This document shows, piece by piece, positions 30,422 through 35,681 of a stretch of DNA of 64,000 nt. The notes below the pieces were generated by a model. That model ran no database searches. It saw nothing but the letters and a program-made list of their open reading frames with translations, and was not told where the DNA came from. Positions within the stretch are counted from its first letter, which is position 1; each line of letters starts with the position of its first letter. The stretch spans positions 1 through 64,000 of the forward strand of contig NZ_LOKZ01000002.1 of the NCBI RefSeq assembly GCF_002211365.1, written 5' to 3'. Source of the stretch: Rhizobium sp. R711 (lineage in GTDB: Bacteria > Pseudomonadota > Alphaproteobacteria > Rhizobiales > Rhizobiaceae). The position numbers were made by a program, and so were the translations under genes.

Positions 30422-31576
30422 ATGAAAATCGCGCCGCAGCAGCGGATCTATGTCTGCTTCTTCCTTTTTGCGGTGTCGATGGGAGCAATGCTTTCGCGTC
30501 TGCCCGATGTTCAGGACGCCTTGCAGATCGACAAATCCGAGCTTGGATTGACGCTGATCGGCGCCGCCATTGGCGCTCTCGTATCGCTGACATTTTCATC
30601 CACCATCGTCGCACGCCTCGGCGCGCGAACGACGGCGTTCCTCACTATTCTTGGAACCTCCGCGCTGCTTGCGCTCGTGCCGTGGATGAGTGCGGCACCC
30701 TTCGTCTTTGCGCTCCTCCTCATGGAAGGGCTTCTGGCGGGAGCGCTGGAGATCAATCTTAACGTCGAGATCGATCGCATCGAGGCGCAGCTTGGCCGTG
30801 GCGTCATGAACAGAGCTCACGGATTTTGGAGTCTTGGGTTTTTCGTGACCGCCCTGGTTTCGGCCTTTGCCCGCCAGGCAGGACTATCGGTGCAGCTTCA
30901 TCTTGCCCTGACGTTCGCATTCGTCCTCCTGGCTGGTACGACCATCATCGCTGGCATGCGCAATGCTCCTGCCCGCCCAACGCTTTCACATGCCGATCCA
31001 GGGCACATCGCGCTTCCGACGCTTGGGCTGCTTCCGCTGTGCCTCATAGGCATCGCGGCATTTCTTGTCGAAGGTGCAGGGATTGACTGGTCAGCGATCT
31101 ATATGCGTGACGTCTTTGACTCAGAGCCGTTTGTCGGAGGACTTGGTCTTACGTTCTTCACGTTTTTCATGGCGCTCACACGCCTCTTTGCCGACCCGTT
31201 TGTCGATCGCTTTGGCTCCAGAACGGTCGCCTTTACGCTGCTTCTCGTATCTGCCGCCGGGCTTTGTGCCGTTTGGCTCGCCCCGCACCAATCTATGGCC
31301 CTTGCGGGGTTTGCCCTCATGGGTGGGGGATGCAGCGCGGTCTATCCGCTCGCCGTCTCGGCAGCAGCGCAGCGCGCGGATCGCGCTGCCCATCTCAACG
31401 TCGCAGCACTCGGCCAGATGTCATTCGTCGTGTTCTTCCTTGCCCCTCCGCTCCTGGGCTTCGTGGCAGAGCACGCCGGCATCCGCACGTCCTATCTTGC
31501 GTGCCTGCCGGTGATCCTTTCTGCCATGGCCTGTATTCGATCCCTGCCATTTTCCCGAAGGATGGTTGCCGCATAG
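30422..31576 (+). CDS. major facilitator superfamily transporter
   Basis: The 384-residue protein has about 12 membrane helices. It starts MKIAPQQRIYVCFFLFAVSMG with MLSRLPDVQDALQIDKSELG after the first helix, typical of the YbjJ/FucP-like MFS group. The cytoplasmic loop motif A region reads VARLGARTTAF. ATG at 30422; the frame open from 30389 has no ribosome binding site. It is single and not clearly linked to a pathway, so export or sugar transport cannot be told apart. Confidence 0.85.
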   Translation: MKIAPQQRIYVCFFLFAVSMGAMLSRLPDVQDALQIDKSELGLTLIGAAIGALVSLTFSSTIVARLGARTTAFLTILGTSALLALVPWMSAAPFVFALLLMEGLLAGALEINLNVEIDRIEAQLGRGVMNRAHGFWSLGFFVTALVSAFARQAGLSVQLHLALTFAFVLLAGTTIIAGMRNAPARPTLSHADPGHIALPTLGLLPLCLIGIAAFLVEGAGIDWSAIYMRDVFDSEPFVGGLGLTFFTFFMALTRLFADPFVDRFGSRTVAFTLLLVSAAGLCAVWLAPHQSMALAGFALMGGGCSAVYPLAVSAAAQRADRAAHLNVAALGQMSFVVFFLAPPLLGFVAEHAGIRTSYLACLPVILSAMACIRSLPFSRRMVAA

Positions 31577-31696
31577 GATGGAAACTTCATCCGTGCCGTC
31601 GACGGCCGGTGCAACGTGCTCGAGATCTCGGCGGAAGCAGTGATCAGTCGCAGCCTTCGCCACCCCAGGCCGGGCAATCACAGCACAAACGAAAAA

Positions 31697-31728
31697 GCCT
31701 GCCGCGGGAGGAGGTGCGGCAGGCTTTT
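31697..31728 (-). ncRNA. cuckoo (CcsR-like) sRNA hairpin 1, terminator-like end of the array
   Basis: Read on the minus strand, GCCTGCCGC (31724-31716) pairs with GCGGCAGGC (31705-31697) around the loop ACCTCCTCCC, and is followed by TTTTT. This is both a CCUCCUCCC-loop hairpin and a perfect intrinsic terminator, so it is the last unit of the array when transcribed from the DUF1127 side. Confidence 0.75.
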
Positions 31729-31740
31729 CCTGAAATAACC

Positions 31741-31773
31741 GAACAGCAGCTGGGAGGAGGAGTGCTGCTGTTC
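31741..31773 (-). ncRNA. cuckoo (CcsR-like) sRNA hairpin 2
   Basis: The 10-base arms GAACAGCAGC (31741-31750) and GCTGCTGTTC (31764-31773) are exact complements. On the minus strand the 13-base loop contains CCTCCTCCC. It is the second unit from the terminator end of the array. Confidence 0.75.
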
Positions 31774-31774
31774 C

Positions 31775-31809
31775 GCAAGCGACCTTGGGAGGAGGAGAAG
31801 GACGCTTGC
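31775..31809 (-). ncRNA. cuckoo (CcsR-like) sRNA hairpin 3
   Basis: GCAAGCG (31775-31781) pairs with CGCTTGC (31803-31809), then CCTT with AAGG after an A-A mismatch. On the minus strand the loop contains CCTCCTCCC. Stem sequence differs from its neighbours while the loop is identical, as expected for independently conserved anti-Shine-Dalgarno loops. Confidence 0.75.
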
Positions 31810-31813
31810 CATA

Positions 31814-31845
31814 CGAAGCGCTGCGGGAGGAGGTGCATCGCTTCG
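31814..31845 (-). ncRNA. cuckoo (CcsR-like) sRNA hairpin 4
   Basis: CGAAGCG (31814-31820) pairs with CGCTTCG (31839-31845), then TGC with GCA after one mismatch; the minus-strand loop is ACCTCCTCCC. It is the first unit downstream of the DUF1127 gene, about 190 bases from its stop. Four units match the four-copy CcsR array described in Rhodobacter sphaeroides. Confidence 0.75.
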
Positions 31846-31973
31846 ATGGATAGACTTCTACACCATTTTCGCCCAAATGACAGGCATCTTTCTGCATGTC
31901 TGCCATGCGCTATGCGTCTACCGGGTGGCTCGACAGGCATTCCAAACGCCCGCCGACAGTGCAGACGCCAAAG

Positions 31974-32005
31974 AAAAAAGCGCCCGCAAGAAGACTGCGG
32001 ACGCT
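31974..32005 (-). terminator. terminator between DUF1127 gene and cuckoo RNA array
   Basis: Read on the minus strand, AGCG-(T)-CCGCA (32005-31996) pairs with TGCGG-(G)-CGCT (31988-31979), followed by TTTTTT. It lies 33 bases after the DUF1127 stop. Read-through, processing or a separate promoter would be needed to express the hairpin array further on. Confidence 0.7.
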
Positions 32006-32037
32006 CGGAAATCGAAAACTTTGGCGGTTTGCCGGCC

Positions 32038-32184
32038 TTAACGGCCGATCGCTGCCTTCGCAACGCTACGGATGTCGGCGCGCTCGATGCCGAGATCGAA
32101 AAGCTCGCGAGTGCTCATACGGCCAAGCTCGGAGACCGTCTGACGGTACTTGCGCCAATTGTTGAAAGAGCGTGCTACGTTCAT
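32038..32184 (-). CDS. DUF1127 small RNA-binding-type protein
   Basis: The 48-residue basic protein (MNVARSFNNWRKYRQTVSEL then GRMSTRELFDLGIERADI) is a canonical DUF1127 (YjiS-like) protein, with the RxTxxELxxLxDxxLxDIGI-type helix. In Rhodobacter the DUF1127 protein CcaF1, encoded upstream of CcsR RNAs, binds RNA and affects sRNA maturation and turnover. Here the gene is likewise upstream of an array of CCUCCUCCC hairpins. ATG at 32184 follows AAGGGG; a frame extending to 32268 adds unrelated sequence. Confidence 0.85.
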   Translation of the reverse strand: MNVARSFNNWRKYRQTVSELGRMSTRELFDLGIERADIRSVAKAAIGR

Positions 32185-32447
32185 GATAATCCCCTTTCCT
32201 GGGCTTTCGAAGCACAGCTGCCAGTCCGTGGCGCTTCGTTTGCTTCGATGACCCTGATATAGGCGCATCTTCTGCCGGCGAACAGCATCAAGACCTCACG
32301 CCACCCATGCGGCAGACGCATAGCGGCCGAAGGCCGCAACCGGTTAGACCGTCCTCGTTTCAGGAGACGCCAAGCCGCGCACCCGACTTGCCACAGCGTG
32401 AGCCATCGATTGCGCGGCCGCAGTGAGTTACCCCGTGTCGTTGGCAC

Positions 32448-33239
32448 TTAAAGCAACATCGACGCACCGCGATCGAGATAGGTGTCGAGGAACTGCTCGA
32501 GCCGTGCATTTCTCGGCTTCCTGAAAACCTCTTGCGGAGGCCCGGTGAAGACGATCCTGCCGTGGTCGAGAAATGCGATCTGCTGTCCGACAGTGGCGGC
32601 AAAGCCGATTTCATGGGAGACGACGACCATCGTCATCCCTTCGGCGGCGAGATCGCGCATGACATTCAGCACTTCGCCTGTCAGCTCCGGGTCGAGAGAG
32701 GACGTCGGCTCGTCGAAAAGCATGATCTTTGGCTTGAGAGCCAGCGCCCGGGCAATCGCCACGCGCTGTTGCTGCCCGCCGGAAAGCTGCGACGGATAGT
32801 GCCCTGCCCGGCTTTCCAGGCCGACCTTCACGAGTTGTGCCATGGCACGCTCTTCGGCATCCTTGCGGCTCATCTTGTGGACGGTCTTCAGCGCCTCGCT
32901 GACATTTCCAAGCGCTGTCATGTGCGGCCAGAGGTTGAACTGCTGAAACACCATGCCGATCTGCGCACGGATCGCACGGTTGGCGGCAGGCGCAATGCGC
33001 TCCCGCATCCCTTGGGCATTTTCGGTGAAACCCAGGACCTCGCCATTGACCGTGATCGTTCCCGACGTTGCTTCCTCGAGAAAAGCCATGCAGCGAAGCA
33101 GCGTGCTCTTGCCCGAACCCGACGGTCCGATCAGGCAGGAGACCTGGCCCTGCGGGATCTCGATGTCGATATTTTGGAGAACCGTCGTATTTCCAAACGT
33201 CTTGACGAGATTTCTAACTGCGATCGCGGGAAGGCTCAT
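32448..33239 (-). CDS. polar amino-acid ABC transporter ATPase (GlnQ/HisP type)
   Basis: The 263-residue ATPase has Walker A GPSGSGKST, Q-loop VFQQFNLWPHMTAL, signature LSGGQQQRVAIARAL and Walker B IMLFDEPTSSLDPEL. This is the short single-domain form used by polar amino-acid importers. Its start overlaps the end of the permease gene by four bases (ATGA, 33236-33239), so it is the last gene of a four-gene minus-strand operon. A longer frame to 33317 overlaps the permease and was rejected. Confidence 0.9.
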   Translation of the reverse strand: MSLPAIAVRNLVKTFGNTTVLQNIDIEIPQGQVSCLIGPSGSGKSTLLRCMAFLEEATSGTITVNGEVLGFTENAQGMRERIAPAANRAIRAQIGMVFQQFNLWPHMTALGNVSEALKTVHKMSRKDAEERAMAQLVKVGLESRAGHYPSQLSGGQQQRVAIARALALKPKIMLFDEPTSSLDPELTGEVLNVMRDLAAEGMTMVVVSHEIGFAATVGQQIAFLDHGRIVFTGPPQEVFRKPRNARLEQFLDTYLDRGASMLL

Positions 33240-33904
33240 GCGTTGAAAAACCTGAATCTGGTGAGTTTTGTTTCGACGAGGCGGCCAAGCCTGCCGGTGA
33301 TCTCCACGAGCACCCAATAGAAGAGCGCCAGCACGGAGAGGGCTTCGACAAAGGCATATTGCTGGGCGCCGATGGCGCTCAGTGTCGCCGTCAGTTCCGG
33401 AACAGTGATGATCGACAAGACGGCAGTCTCCTTCATCAGGAGAACCGCCATATTGAGAGACGGTGGGAGCACGAGCATGGTCATCTCAGGCAACAGGATG
33501 CGCCGGATAATCTGCCTCTGCGTTAAGCCCACGCACTCGCCCGCCTCGATGTGACCCTTGGGAACGGCCATGAAACCGGATCGGAAGATCTCGCTGTAGT
33601 AGGCAGCGCCATAGATCGAAATGCCAATCAAGCCGGCAGGGAGCGGATCGAGCGACAGGCCGATGAACGGACCGCCGTAATAGACGAGAAAGATCTGGAT
33701 GAGGAACGGTGTACCGCGCAGCACGGCAACGATCAGGAAAAGCGCCTTGTTTAGCATCGGGCCACCGAACCGCCGGCCGACAGCGACGAAGAATCCGAGG
33801 ATGGCAGCAGCGATTGTCCCGACGATCCAGATCAGGATCGTGACGCCGGCACCACTTGTGATCGCCGGCAGTTGGTCGAGGATGACGTTTATGTCGAAGG
33901 TCAT
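33236..33904 (-). CDS. polar amino-acid ABC transporter permease 2 (HisM/GlnP type)
   Basis: This 222-residue permease begins MTFDINVILDQLPAITSGAG and has about five membrane helices. The EAA loop reads EAGECVGLTQRQIIRRILLPEM, the form of the His/Glu/Gln importer group. ATGA overlaps join it to the upstream permease (33901-33904) and the downstream ATPase gene (33236-33239), giving tight translational coupling. A frame extending to 34270 is an antisense shadow of the other permease and was rejected. Confidence 0.88.
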   Translation of the reverse strand: MTFDINVILDQLPAITSGAGVTILIWIVGTIAAAILGFFVAVGRRFGGPMLNKALFLIVAVLRGTPFLIQIFLVYYGGPFIGLSLDPLPAGLIGISIYGAAYYSEIFRSGFMAVPKGHIEAGECVGLTQRQIIRRILLPEMTMLVLPPSLNMAVLLMKETAVLSIITVPELTATLSAIGAQQYAFVEALSVLALFYWVLVEITGRLGRLVETKLTRFRFFNA

Positions 33905-34542
33905 CGCGGCACTCCCGGAAGAGAGCGCTCGATAAGATCGCCGGCAAGCGCGACGATCCAGTTGATGACGAGATAGATAAGGCCCGCGGCCGCAAATATC
34001 TGCAGCGGCAGGAAGGTGCTGCCGGCGAGATCCTGCGCCATGCGCGTCAATTCGATGACGCCGACGACGGAAACCAGCGACGACGCCTTGAGGATCAGGA
34101 TTGCCTCGTTGACCAGCGCCGGAAAGGTCAGCCTGAGCGCGATTGGCGCCTTGATGCGCCGGAAGATCTGGCCCGGTGTCAGGCCAACCATTTCGGCGGA
34201 TTCCACGAGACCGATCGGGACGCTGGCAAATCCGCCGCGCATGTTTTCTGCCTGGTAGGCGGCTGTGCACAGTGAGAGGCCGATGATCGCAGCGACGATG
34301 CTCGGCACGTTCAGCCCGATCGCGGGCAACATGTTGTAGATCAACAGCAGCTGCACGAGCAGAGGAACGCCGCGGAAGAAACTGATGAAAATTTGTGCGG
34401 GAATGACGAAGGGCGCCTTCTTCGACAGCAGCATGCCCGACAGAAGGATTGCGATTGCAAAGCCGATCAAAATGGAGACGACACTTATCAGCACCGTGTA
34501 GATCGACGCATAGAGAAGCAATTCAAAGAGTTTGATGGACAT
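33901..34542 (-). CDS. polar amino-acid ABC transporter permease 1 (HisQ/GlnP type)
   Basis: The 213-residue permease has about five membrane helices and the EAA loop ESAEMVGLTPGQIFRRIKAPIA. RGVPLLVQLLLIYNMLP is the usual family sequence after the second helix. It pairs with the next gene product to form the channel. It is separated from the binding-protein gene by 88 bases that contain a 12-pair stem-loop. Confidence 0.88.
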   Translation of the reverse strand: MSIKLFELLLYASIYTVLISVVSILIGFAIAILLSGMLLSKKAPFVIPAQIFISFFRGVPLLVQLLLIYNMLPAIGLNVPSIVAAIIGLSLCTAAYQAENMRGGFASVPIGLVESAEMVGLTPGQIFRRIKAPIALRLTFPALVNEAILILKASSLVSVVGVIELTRMAQDLAGSTFLPLQIFAAAGLIYLVINWIVALAGDLIERSLPGVPR

Positions 34543-34587
34543 GTCCGGCTTTTGCCCGCCTGGCTGTCATAGAGGCAAATGGCGTCT

Positions 34588-34616
34588 TCGATTGCGCCCC
34601 GACCGGGCGCAATCGA
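34588..34616 (-). terminator. intercistronic stem-loop between binding-protein and permease genes
   Basis: TCGATTGCGCCC (34588-34599) and GGGCGCAATCGA (34605-34616) are perfect 12-base complements around a five-base loop. It lies between the binding-protein stop and the first permease start on the minus strand. There is no T-tract, so it probably protects or attenuates the transcript rather than ending it. Confidence 0.6.
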
Positions 34617-34630
34617 TGATCGGTCTACAG

Positions 34631-35458
34631 TCAGAACGCAGGATCCTTGACCGCATCGGGCGTGTCGAAGGTGGCGCCAAACCACTTCTTCTGCAGCTCG
34701 GCCATACGGCCGTCCGCCTTGATCTTCAAAAGTGCTGCATCGATAGCGTCCATCAGCGGCCCGTGATCGGCATCCTTCAGGCCGATGAAACCGAAATAGG
34801 ACTTCTTGCCGAACGGCGGCAGGACGACTTCGAAGGTTCCCTCCCGCTGCTTGGCGACGAAAGCGATATTCGGCAAAGAGTTGGCAACGCCAGCAATACG
34901 ACCAGCTGCGAGATCAGCATAGGATTCGGTGAAGGCGGGGTATTCGCGGATGTCCACCTTCGAAGGCAGGGTTGCCGAAAATTCCTTCAGCTGATCGAGC
35001 TGTGAAGTCGCCTTGCCAACGCCAATCGTCTTGCCGGCGATGTCCTCGGGCTTGCTGATCGTCGTGTCACCGGCCTTCTTCAGGATCGCGATGGTCGCTT
35101 CGGCAATCGGGGGCGTGAAGCGATAACGCTCCAGGCGCTTCTTGGTGATGGTCGCAGGGCCGGCAACGACGTCGAACTTCCCAGCTTCAAGCGCCGGGAA
35201 CACGCCGTCCCAAGGAAGAGCTACCCATTCGATCTTGACCCCGAGCTCCTTGCCGATTTCGGCAAAAAGATCAACGTTCAAACCAGCGTGCTCGCCGGCA
35301 TCGATAAAATCAAAGGGCGCAAAGGCGGTTTCCGTACCGACTTTCAGCGTGCCCGCTGCCTTGACGGCGGCAAGCGTGTCGGCCGCATGCGCCGACAGGG
35401 TCGCCCCGACCAGAAAGGCGGCGCCGACGAGGCCCTTAAGCAGTGAACGTGCGATCAT
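34631..35458 (-). CDS. amino-acid ABC transporter substrate-binding protein
   Basis: The 275-residue protein has a Sec signal peptide (MIARSLLKGLVGAAFLVGATLSAHA, about 25 residues; cleavage after AHA) and a family-3 solute-binding fold starting with LKVGTETAFAPFDFI. An LNVDLFAEIGKELGVKIEWV strand-helix follows. It binds an amino acid or related small organic solute in the periplasm. The start at 35458 is preferred, with GGAGAG nine bases upstream. Ligand unknown; linkage to an LLM monooxygenase suggests a substituted amino acid. Confidence 0.85.
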   Translation of the reverse strand: MIARSLLKGLVGAAFLVGATLSAHAADTLAAVKAAGTLKVGTETAFAPFDFIDAGEHAGLNVDLFAEIGKELGVKIEWVALPWDGVFPALEAGKFDVVAGPATITKKRLERYRFTPPIAEATIAILKKAGDTTISKPEDIAGKTIGVGKATSQLDQLKEFSATLPSKVDIREYPAFTESYADLAAGRIAGVANSLPNIAFVAKQREGTFEVVLPPFGKKSYFGFIGLKDADHGPLMDAIDAALLKIKADGRMAELQKKWFGATFDTPDAVKDPAF

Positions 35459-35681
35459 GATTGTCATCTCTCCAGTTTCCACACCCGCCAGGATGCGTTC
35501 GAGTTCCCGATTTTTAGTCCCGTGCGCGGACGTCTGCGATCCGCTTTTGACTATACAAATAGATATGCGCTAGCCTAGGGTGTCAATGTCAAAGTCGACG
35601 AACGCAATTTTTGTGCCGGACGGCTTCCTGCCGGCGTAATTTCGCGGTTGCGTTTTTTGGTCGGCAGCGCGATGAGGCCGT

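Follow-up and report, generated by a model that had tools for sequence, protein, structure and literature searches.

The minus strand of the window, the whole 64,000-nt stretch of DNA analysed here, carries a short DUF1127 gene followed by four consecutive hairpins with a common loop, which covariance-model matching assigns to the ar14 = NfeR1/cuckoo family of RNAs. The best explanation overall, to which we give a probability of about 0.72, is that the array would be a single four-hairpin, trans-acting RNA of the ar14/NfeR1 type, that the RNA and the DUF1127 gene would constitute a CIN1 pair, and that the two would form separate transcription units, both activated by LsrB. The RNA family and its pairing with DUF1127 genes are already known in print; what the window adds is one more well-formed copy next to that known partner, an ordinary member with an interesting difference in layout. 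The features of the locus are, in the direction of transcription:

32307..32320, minus: LsrB/VtlR-like box TGCGTCTGCCGCAT; distance to the DUF1127 start codon, 136 nt
32038..32184, minus: DUF1127 gene, 48 aa (open reading frame; PF06568, 55 bits, cut-off 23.3)
31978..32006, minus: predicted intrinsic terminator of the DUF1127 gene (12-bp stem and T run)
31893..31908, minus: degenerate LsrB-like box GCATGGCAGACATGCA before the array, differing from the family box at three positions and lying in the conserved place, 75 nt ahead of the first loop
31810..31848, minus: hairpin 1, the extra 5' hairpin, loop CCTCCTCCC; present in 14/14 loci of the window type (defined below)
31775..31809, minus: hairpin 2, loop CCTCCTCCC, first ar14 hairpin (Rfam match, fold)
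31741..31773, minus: hairpin 3, loop CCTCCTCCC (Rfam match, fold)
31691..31730, minus: hairpin 4, loop CCTCCTCCC, T run after it, also the predicted terminator (Rfam match, fold)
31690..31815, minus: match to Rfam ar14 (RF02344), 108.3 bits, E 4.5e-19
31706-31714, 31752-31760, 31787-31795 and 31825-31833, minus: the four CCTCCTCCC sites

The array fits a four-hairpin RNA of the ar14 family

A motif count over the 64,000 nt showed that CCTCCTCCC occurs exactly four times in the whole window, always on the minus strand, where 0.49 occurrences are expected; none of 100 dinucleotide shuffles reached four (largest shuffle, 2). Each site is the loop of a 10-13 bp stem that is 91-100% complementary. 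A sequence-only reading of this DNA had described four different stems sharing one identical minus-strand loop, and this description is correct; the locus was also rightly placed, with the hairpins running from 31848 to 31691, slightly beyond the limit of 31697 given there. Folding of 31849-31684 gives -76.9 kcal/mol (z -7.6), lower than any of 200 shuffles. Genome-wide, the bare 9-mer is not rare (50 copies vs 48 for the reversed control), and the distinctive point is the clustering of CCTCCTCCC within hairpins, not the 9-mer alone. A 161-aa open frame runs through the array (31421-31906, minus) and could be mis-annotated as a gene.

The ar14 match exceeds the cut-off of that model (58.8 bits) and takes in the last three hairpins, all with CCUCCUCCC loops and with a T run behind the last, as expected of ar14, while the 5'-most hairpin 1 falls outside the model. 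With 108.3 bits, the covariance-model search bears out the proposal of a cuckoo-type anti-Shine-Dalgarno (aSD) RNA. The same reading had likened the hairpins to four RNAs corresponding to CcsR1-4. They fit instead one ar14-type RNA plus an extra 5' hairpin, the last hairpin being the predicted terminator, and the CcsR1 model applied to the first two hairpins gave 34.8 bits (E 1.4e-6, short search), where the cut-off is 65.3. CcsR1 and ar7 were both rejected as family assignments, their models scoring below cut-off.

Among the RNAs described in PMC3927594 are the three-hairpin SmelA075, the four-hairpin SmelA099 and the related two-hairpin forms SmelC201 and RS0680a of R. sphaeroides, and a single family with a varying number of hairpins is suggested there. 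The window has the four consecutive aSD hairpins by which PMC3927594 describes the four-hairpin cuckoo form SmelA099; compared by that description, the two are also alike in their CCUCCUCCC-like loops and in having several copies per genome, and differ in that the term DUF1127 is absent from the main text of PMC3927594. NfeR1/ar14 (RF02344) of Sinorhizobium meliloti resembles the array in covariance score, CCUCCUCCC loops, terminator hairpin and, in relatives of the window, an LsrB-type box upstream, whereas the window has an extra 5' hairpin, a DUF1127 gene directly upstream and a degenerate box.

The stems covary

The window and 20 four-hairpin copies from the genus Rhizobium were aligned (21 rows). 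Scored against an RNAalifold structure taken from this same alignment, which favours the structure, 98.6% of stem cells pair and both-side changes affect 10 of 40 pairs (39 cells); these values are reached by none of 500 shuffles and by no slid version. The number of pair types showed no excess in the 21 rows (26 vs 25.3 in shuffles; 188/500). Covariation is found almost entirely in hairpins 2 and 3; hairpin 1 and the terminator hairpin hardly vary, and hairpin 4 is nearly invariant across the alignment. The earlier statement that the loops stay constant while the stems vary is thus supported by covariation. A repeat or DNA element, considered as a candidate, was ruled out by the covariance-model match together with the covarying stems.

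DUF1127 genes and ar14 RNAs are recurrently linked

As the sequence-only reading had it, a DUF1127 gene lies just upstream of the array (32184-32038, minus; PF06568, 55 bits). In alphaproteobacteria, short DUF1127 proteins frequently go together with CcsR-like RNAs, an arrangement named the CIN1 locus by Reinkensmeier and Giegerich 2015 (PMC10253847), and by this definition, which is one sentence in PMC10253847, the window's short DUF1127 gene and CcsR-like RNA make up a CIN1 locus. Genes of an amino-acid type ABC transporter (solute-binding protein, permease and ATPase) stand just upstream of the DUF1127 gene (32448-35482, minus).

The host genome, of the genus Rhizobium, has four ar14 copies and seven DUF1127 matches over cut-off. 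Two of the four copies adjoin DUF1127 genes, namely the window's and one on contig C36; at this second linked locus (G000:C36:136613-137713) an ar14 copy is followed by two DUF1127 genes. The 67 ar14 copies over cut-off in 13 Rhizobium genomes could be sorted by their neighbourhood. Fourteen follow a same-strand DUF1127 match at a distance of 225-270 nt (window type), 12 precede a pair of DUF1127 matches, the first of them 410-467 nt away (other locus type), and for the remaining 41 the 59 DUF1127 matches used include none within 2 kb. Four hairpins are present in all 14 window-type loci after overlapping matches were merged by eye, and seven ar14 copies without a listed DUF1127 gene are also four-hairpin forms, one of them (L065) near a contig end. 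Across all genomes of the tally, 41 of the 46 DUF1127 matches of at least 45 bits lie within 1.2 kb of an ar14 match. The association is real and recurrent.

A protein search supplied further, named loci, for which the best 80 of 424 were taken. Our own detector placed a hairpin array downstream of the DUF1127 gene in 49 of these best 80, upstream in 5 and none within 1.5 kb in 26, the last group including all 9 Ensifer and Sinorhizobium loci of the set.

A terminator and two boxes point to two transcription units

The separate terminator previously noted between gene and array is present (32006-31978, 12-bp stem and T run). One is found between DUF1127 stop codon and array in 14/14 window-type loci over the ar14 cut-off in the 13 Rhizobium genomes; in shuffled gene-array stretches some terminator was detected in 89/280, and one as good as the real one in 2/280. 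The idea that the DUF1127 terminator is a relic aSD hairpin was set aside as a lead, a CTCC loop being present in just 13 of 77 detected terminators; CTCC-loop terminators that are possibly such relics occur at L142, L143, L157, L160, L150, L168, L171 and other loci. A TPP riboswitch lies near one DUF1127-ar14 locus (L150, 1170-1266, minus).

Upstream of the gene, TGCGTCTGCCGCAT differs at one position from the published TGCA-N6-GCAT and occupies the conserved place, as an LsrB-like box of the DUF1127 gene would. All 14 window-type loci have this core within one mismatch, at -135 to -137 relative to the DUF1127 start (2.2 expected), and it is exact before the first DUF1127 genes of the other locus type (12/12, 0.06 expected). 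The second DUF1127 genes of that type do not fit it (1/12 within one mismatch, 2.9 expected). Upstream stretches of ar14 copies contain the core within one mismatch in 37 of 50 cases (8.4 expected), as do those of ar14 copies that precede DUF1127 genes in 9 of 12 (1.9 expected). Scanning DUF1127 upstream stretches with the array-box matrix had given a mixed result (26 genes, shuffles as good 0 to 0.49); since DUF1127 genes keep mainly the TGCA-N6-GCAT half, the published core was used next. Five weak ar14 copies (L109-L113, 60-82 bits), in which no such box was seen by eye, were excluded from the matrix scan and from these core counts. At about 880-1010 these divergent copies have, without an LsrB box, a common CTTGAATTTGCCGCATTGCGGCACTACCTC-like upstream sequence, which we take to resemble an RpoH-type promoter.

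The named loci gave a similar picture for the gene: 75 of the best 80 of 424 carry the core with at most one mismatch (10.3 expected), always starting at -140 to -129. The box pattern itself comes from relatives that partly recur in the named set, and loci of related strains do not count as independent. Before window-type arrays TGCA-N6-GCAT is mostly poor, with 3/14 within one mismatch and 11/14 at two mismatches. A neighbouring element, GCATNGCTGCANTGCA, is kept before 13/14 of them within two mismatches, the window's array having three. Allowing three mismatches, GCATNGCTGCANTGCA precedes the array in 49/49 linked named loci of the best 80 of 424 (0.92 expected), and in 46 of these 49 its position is -74 to -76 relative to the first loop detected; the three off-distance cases arise because the detector skipped hairpins with altered loops.

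The window's own array box is a poor representative: when the 140 nt upstream of the array were shuffled 1000 times, an equally good match turned up somewhere in 19 cases. At the aligned -10 place the window reads TAGAAG against a 37-locus consensus of GTAt..T, and a sigma-70 scan found no promoter before its array. These features, the three mismatches of the array box included, count against the best explanation, as do the mostly poor TGCA-N6-GCAT half before window-type arrays, the second DUF1127 genes that depart from the pattern, the mixed first matrix scan and the dependence among the loci. The three mismatches and the poor -10 also favour the possibility that the promoter has decayed and that the intact array is hardly expressed in this strain, where three other ar14 copies over cut-off could compensate. 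Such decay seems improbable, because the stems and loops are intact and Rhizobium sp. CF122 (L131), the closest DUF1127 match among the best 80 of 424, keeps a near-same variant, GCATGGCAGTCATGCA, at the same place.

An alternative to two units is modelled on Rhodobacter sphaeroides, in which a single transcript of gene and RNAs starts from an RpoHI/RpoHII promoter and is cleaved by RNase E (PMC10253847). In a CcaF1-CcsR-like operon in the window, transcription from the DUF1127 promoter would have to pass a leaky terminator, with the RNA processed from the joint transcript. The gene order is the same as in ccaF1-CcsR1-4, an operon-like layout with the RNA 0-14 nt after the stop codon exists in 22 loci of other genera, and the window's own array promoter is degenerate, all of which suits an operon. 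We nevertheless regard it as unlikely, given the terminator in 14/14 window-type loci and the array box at a fixed distance in 46/49 linked loci of the best 80 of 424. The window shares with ccaF1-CcsR1-4, as with the CIN1 locus, the same-strand upstream DUF1127 gene and the CCUCCUCCC loops; there, one cotranscript yields four RNAs, whereas here a terminator, a separate box and one predicted four-hairpin RNA are found. Hence the CcaF1-CcsR1-4 arrangement formerly read into this DNA holds for the gene order and finds less support for a single transcription unit, against which the terminators and the LsrB-like box before the array speak. For heat, one of the stresses under which the same reading proposed to look for transcripts, the scans for LsrB-type boxes and sigma-70 promoters gave no sign of induction, and the boxes point to LsrB. 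Gene and array are best read as two separately promoted genes that are probably under LsrB control.

An LsrB orthologue and possible targets

The host genome carries trxB on contig C38 with a LysR gene behind it, the protein of which matches LsrB of A. tumefaciens (PDB 9HH1) with 636 bits over residues 2-299 of 299 searched; by sequence, it is the LsrB orthologue. LsrB binds and activates NfeR1 (PMC10746234). VtlR, which is Agrobacterium LsrB, binds and activates atu1667 (PMC7486931), called in that paper an orthologue of Brucella genes that PMC12595884 calls DUF1127, and in Brucella VtlR activates three DUF1127 genes (PMC12595884). The window agrees with the LsrB/VtlR regulon of Rhizobiales in the box type before gene and array and in the orthologue behind trxB; it differs in the weakness of its array box, and regulation in this strain is predicted from sequence.

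Under the two-unit reading, the redox-responsive LysR regulator LsrB would activate both the DUF1127 gene, as a unit with its own LsrB-like box and terminator, and the RNA, as a unit with its own box and terminator hairpin. Each hairpin would present CCUCCUCCC for pairing with GGGAGG-type Shine-Dalgarno sites, by which the translation start of target mRNAs would be blocked, and the four loops are probably redundant. NfeR1 likewise has three redundant aSD loops and silences ntrB; in a reporter assay the silencing was lost once its three loops were mutated, and its predicted targets are mostly ABC transporter genes (PMC10746234). DUF1127 proteins of Agrobacterium bind PhoR, and RNA binding by CcaF1 is discussed (PMC12501420); an action of the window's DUF1127 protein on the RNA is conceivable.

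The target prediction against GGAGG-type sites proposed earlier was carried as far as a pattern count and one gene. The best match to an NtrB model in the genome scores 193.6 bits, short of the cut-off of 240, and has GGGAGG before its likely ATG, which lends weak support because such sites are common. GGGAGGA stands 3-10 nt before ATG at 157 places in the genome, compared with 28 for the reversed control pattern. That many start sites could therefore pair would suit a general translation brake, or a protein sponge, working through the four loops and not on particular target mRNAs. We consider this very improbable, as the loop-dependent ntrB silencing by the family member NfeR1 in the reporter assay (PMC10746234) argues against it.

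Operon-like and split layouts within one family

Across the wider family to which the genus belongs, ar14 was found at E 1e-4 in 60 of 61 genomes (59/60 genera) and over cut-off in 56, and DUF1127 at E 1e-8 in 58 of 61. At least 50 of the 56 genomes contain a linked pair, with DUF1127 on the strand of the RNA and either up to 700 nt upstream or up to 1 kb downstream of it. In at least 30 of the 56 the layout is operon-like, the DUF1127 domain being followed by an ar14 copy after 27-61 nt. In 22 operon-like loci of other genera read in detail, 0-14 nt separate the stop codon from the RNA, which leaves no room for a terminator between DUF1127 gene and RNA. The LsrB core within one mismatch precedes the gene in 16 of these loci; in 4 others, where two DUF1127 genes form a pair, it precedes the first of them, giving 20/22 (3.7 expected). 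The gap is wide in seven loci, among them one from the window's genus; five of the seven combine a terminator with a box ahead of the RNA, and L233 and L237 have no such box. Three loci with gaps of 51-74 nt show no clear terminator or box.

These layouts suggest that the operon-like form is older and that the window's is an uncoupled form, a direction drawn from breadth (at least 30/56 genomes, one genome outside the family and Rhodobacter in print). Tentatively, the RNA would be the 3' untranslated region of the DUF1127 mRNA in at least 30 of the 56 sampled genomes and would have become uncoupled in Rhizobium, Agrobacterium, Neorhizobium and some relatives, where an ordinary terminator would close the gene and a second copy of the same LsrB-type promoter would serve the RNA; one regulator would still drive both, and their ratio could differ. 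A literature search found no title or abstract on the contrast between split and operon-like layouts, which may still be in print. The occurrence of both layouts within one family, with the same type of regulator box, is possibly useful.

Unusual arrangements were also seen. In a genome outside the family (G043), four DUF1127 units stand in a row (L116, G043:C130, 400-2300). Three of the four are directly followed by two hairpins with CCTCC-type loops, the second a terminator, as judged by eye; their Rfam scores of 32-46 bits are below cut-off, and each unit has an LsrB-like box by eye. At L231 (G087:C45, 335-829), four ar14 copies lie in tandem directly behind one DUF1127 gene.
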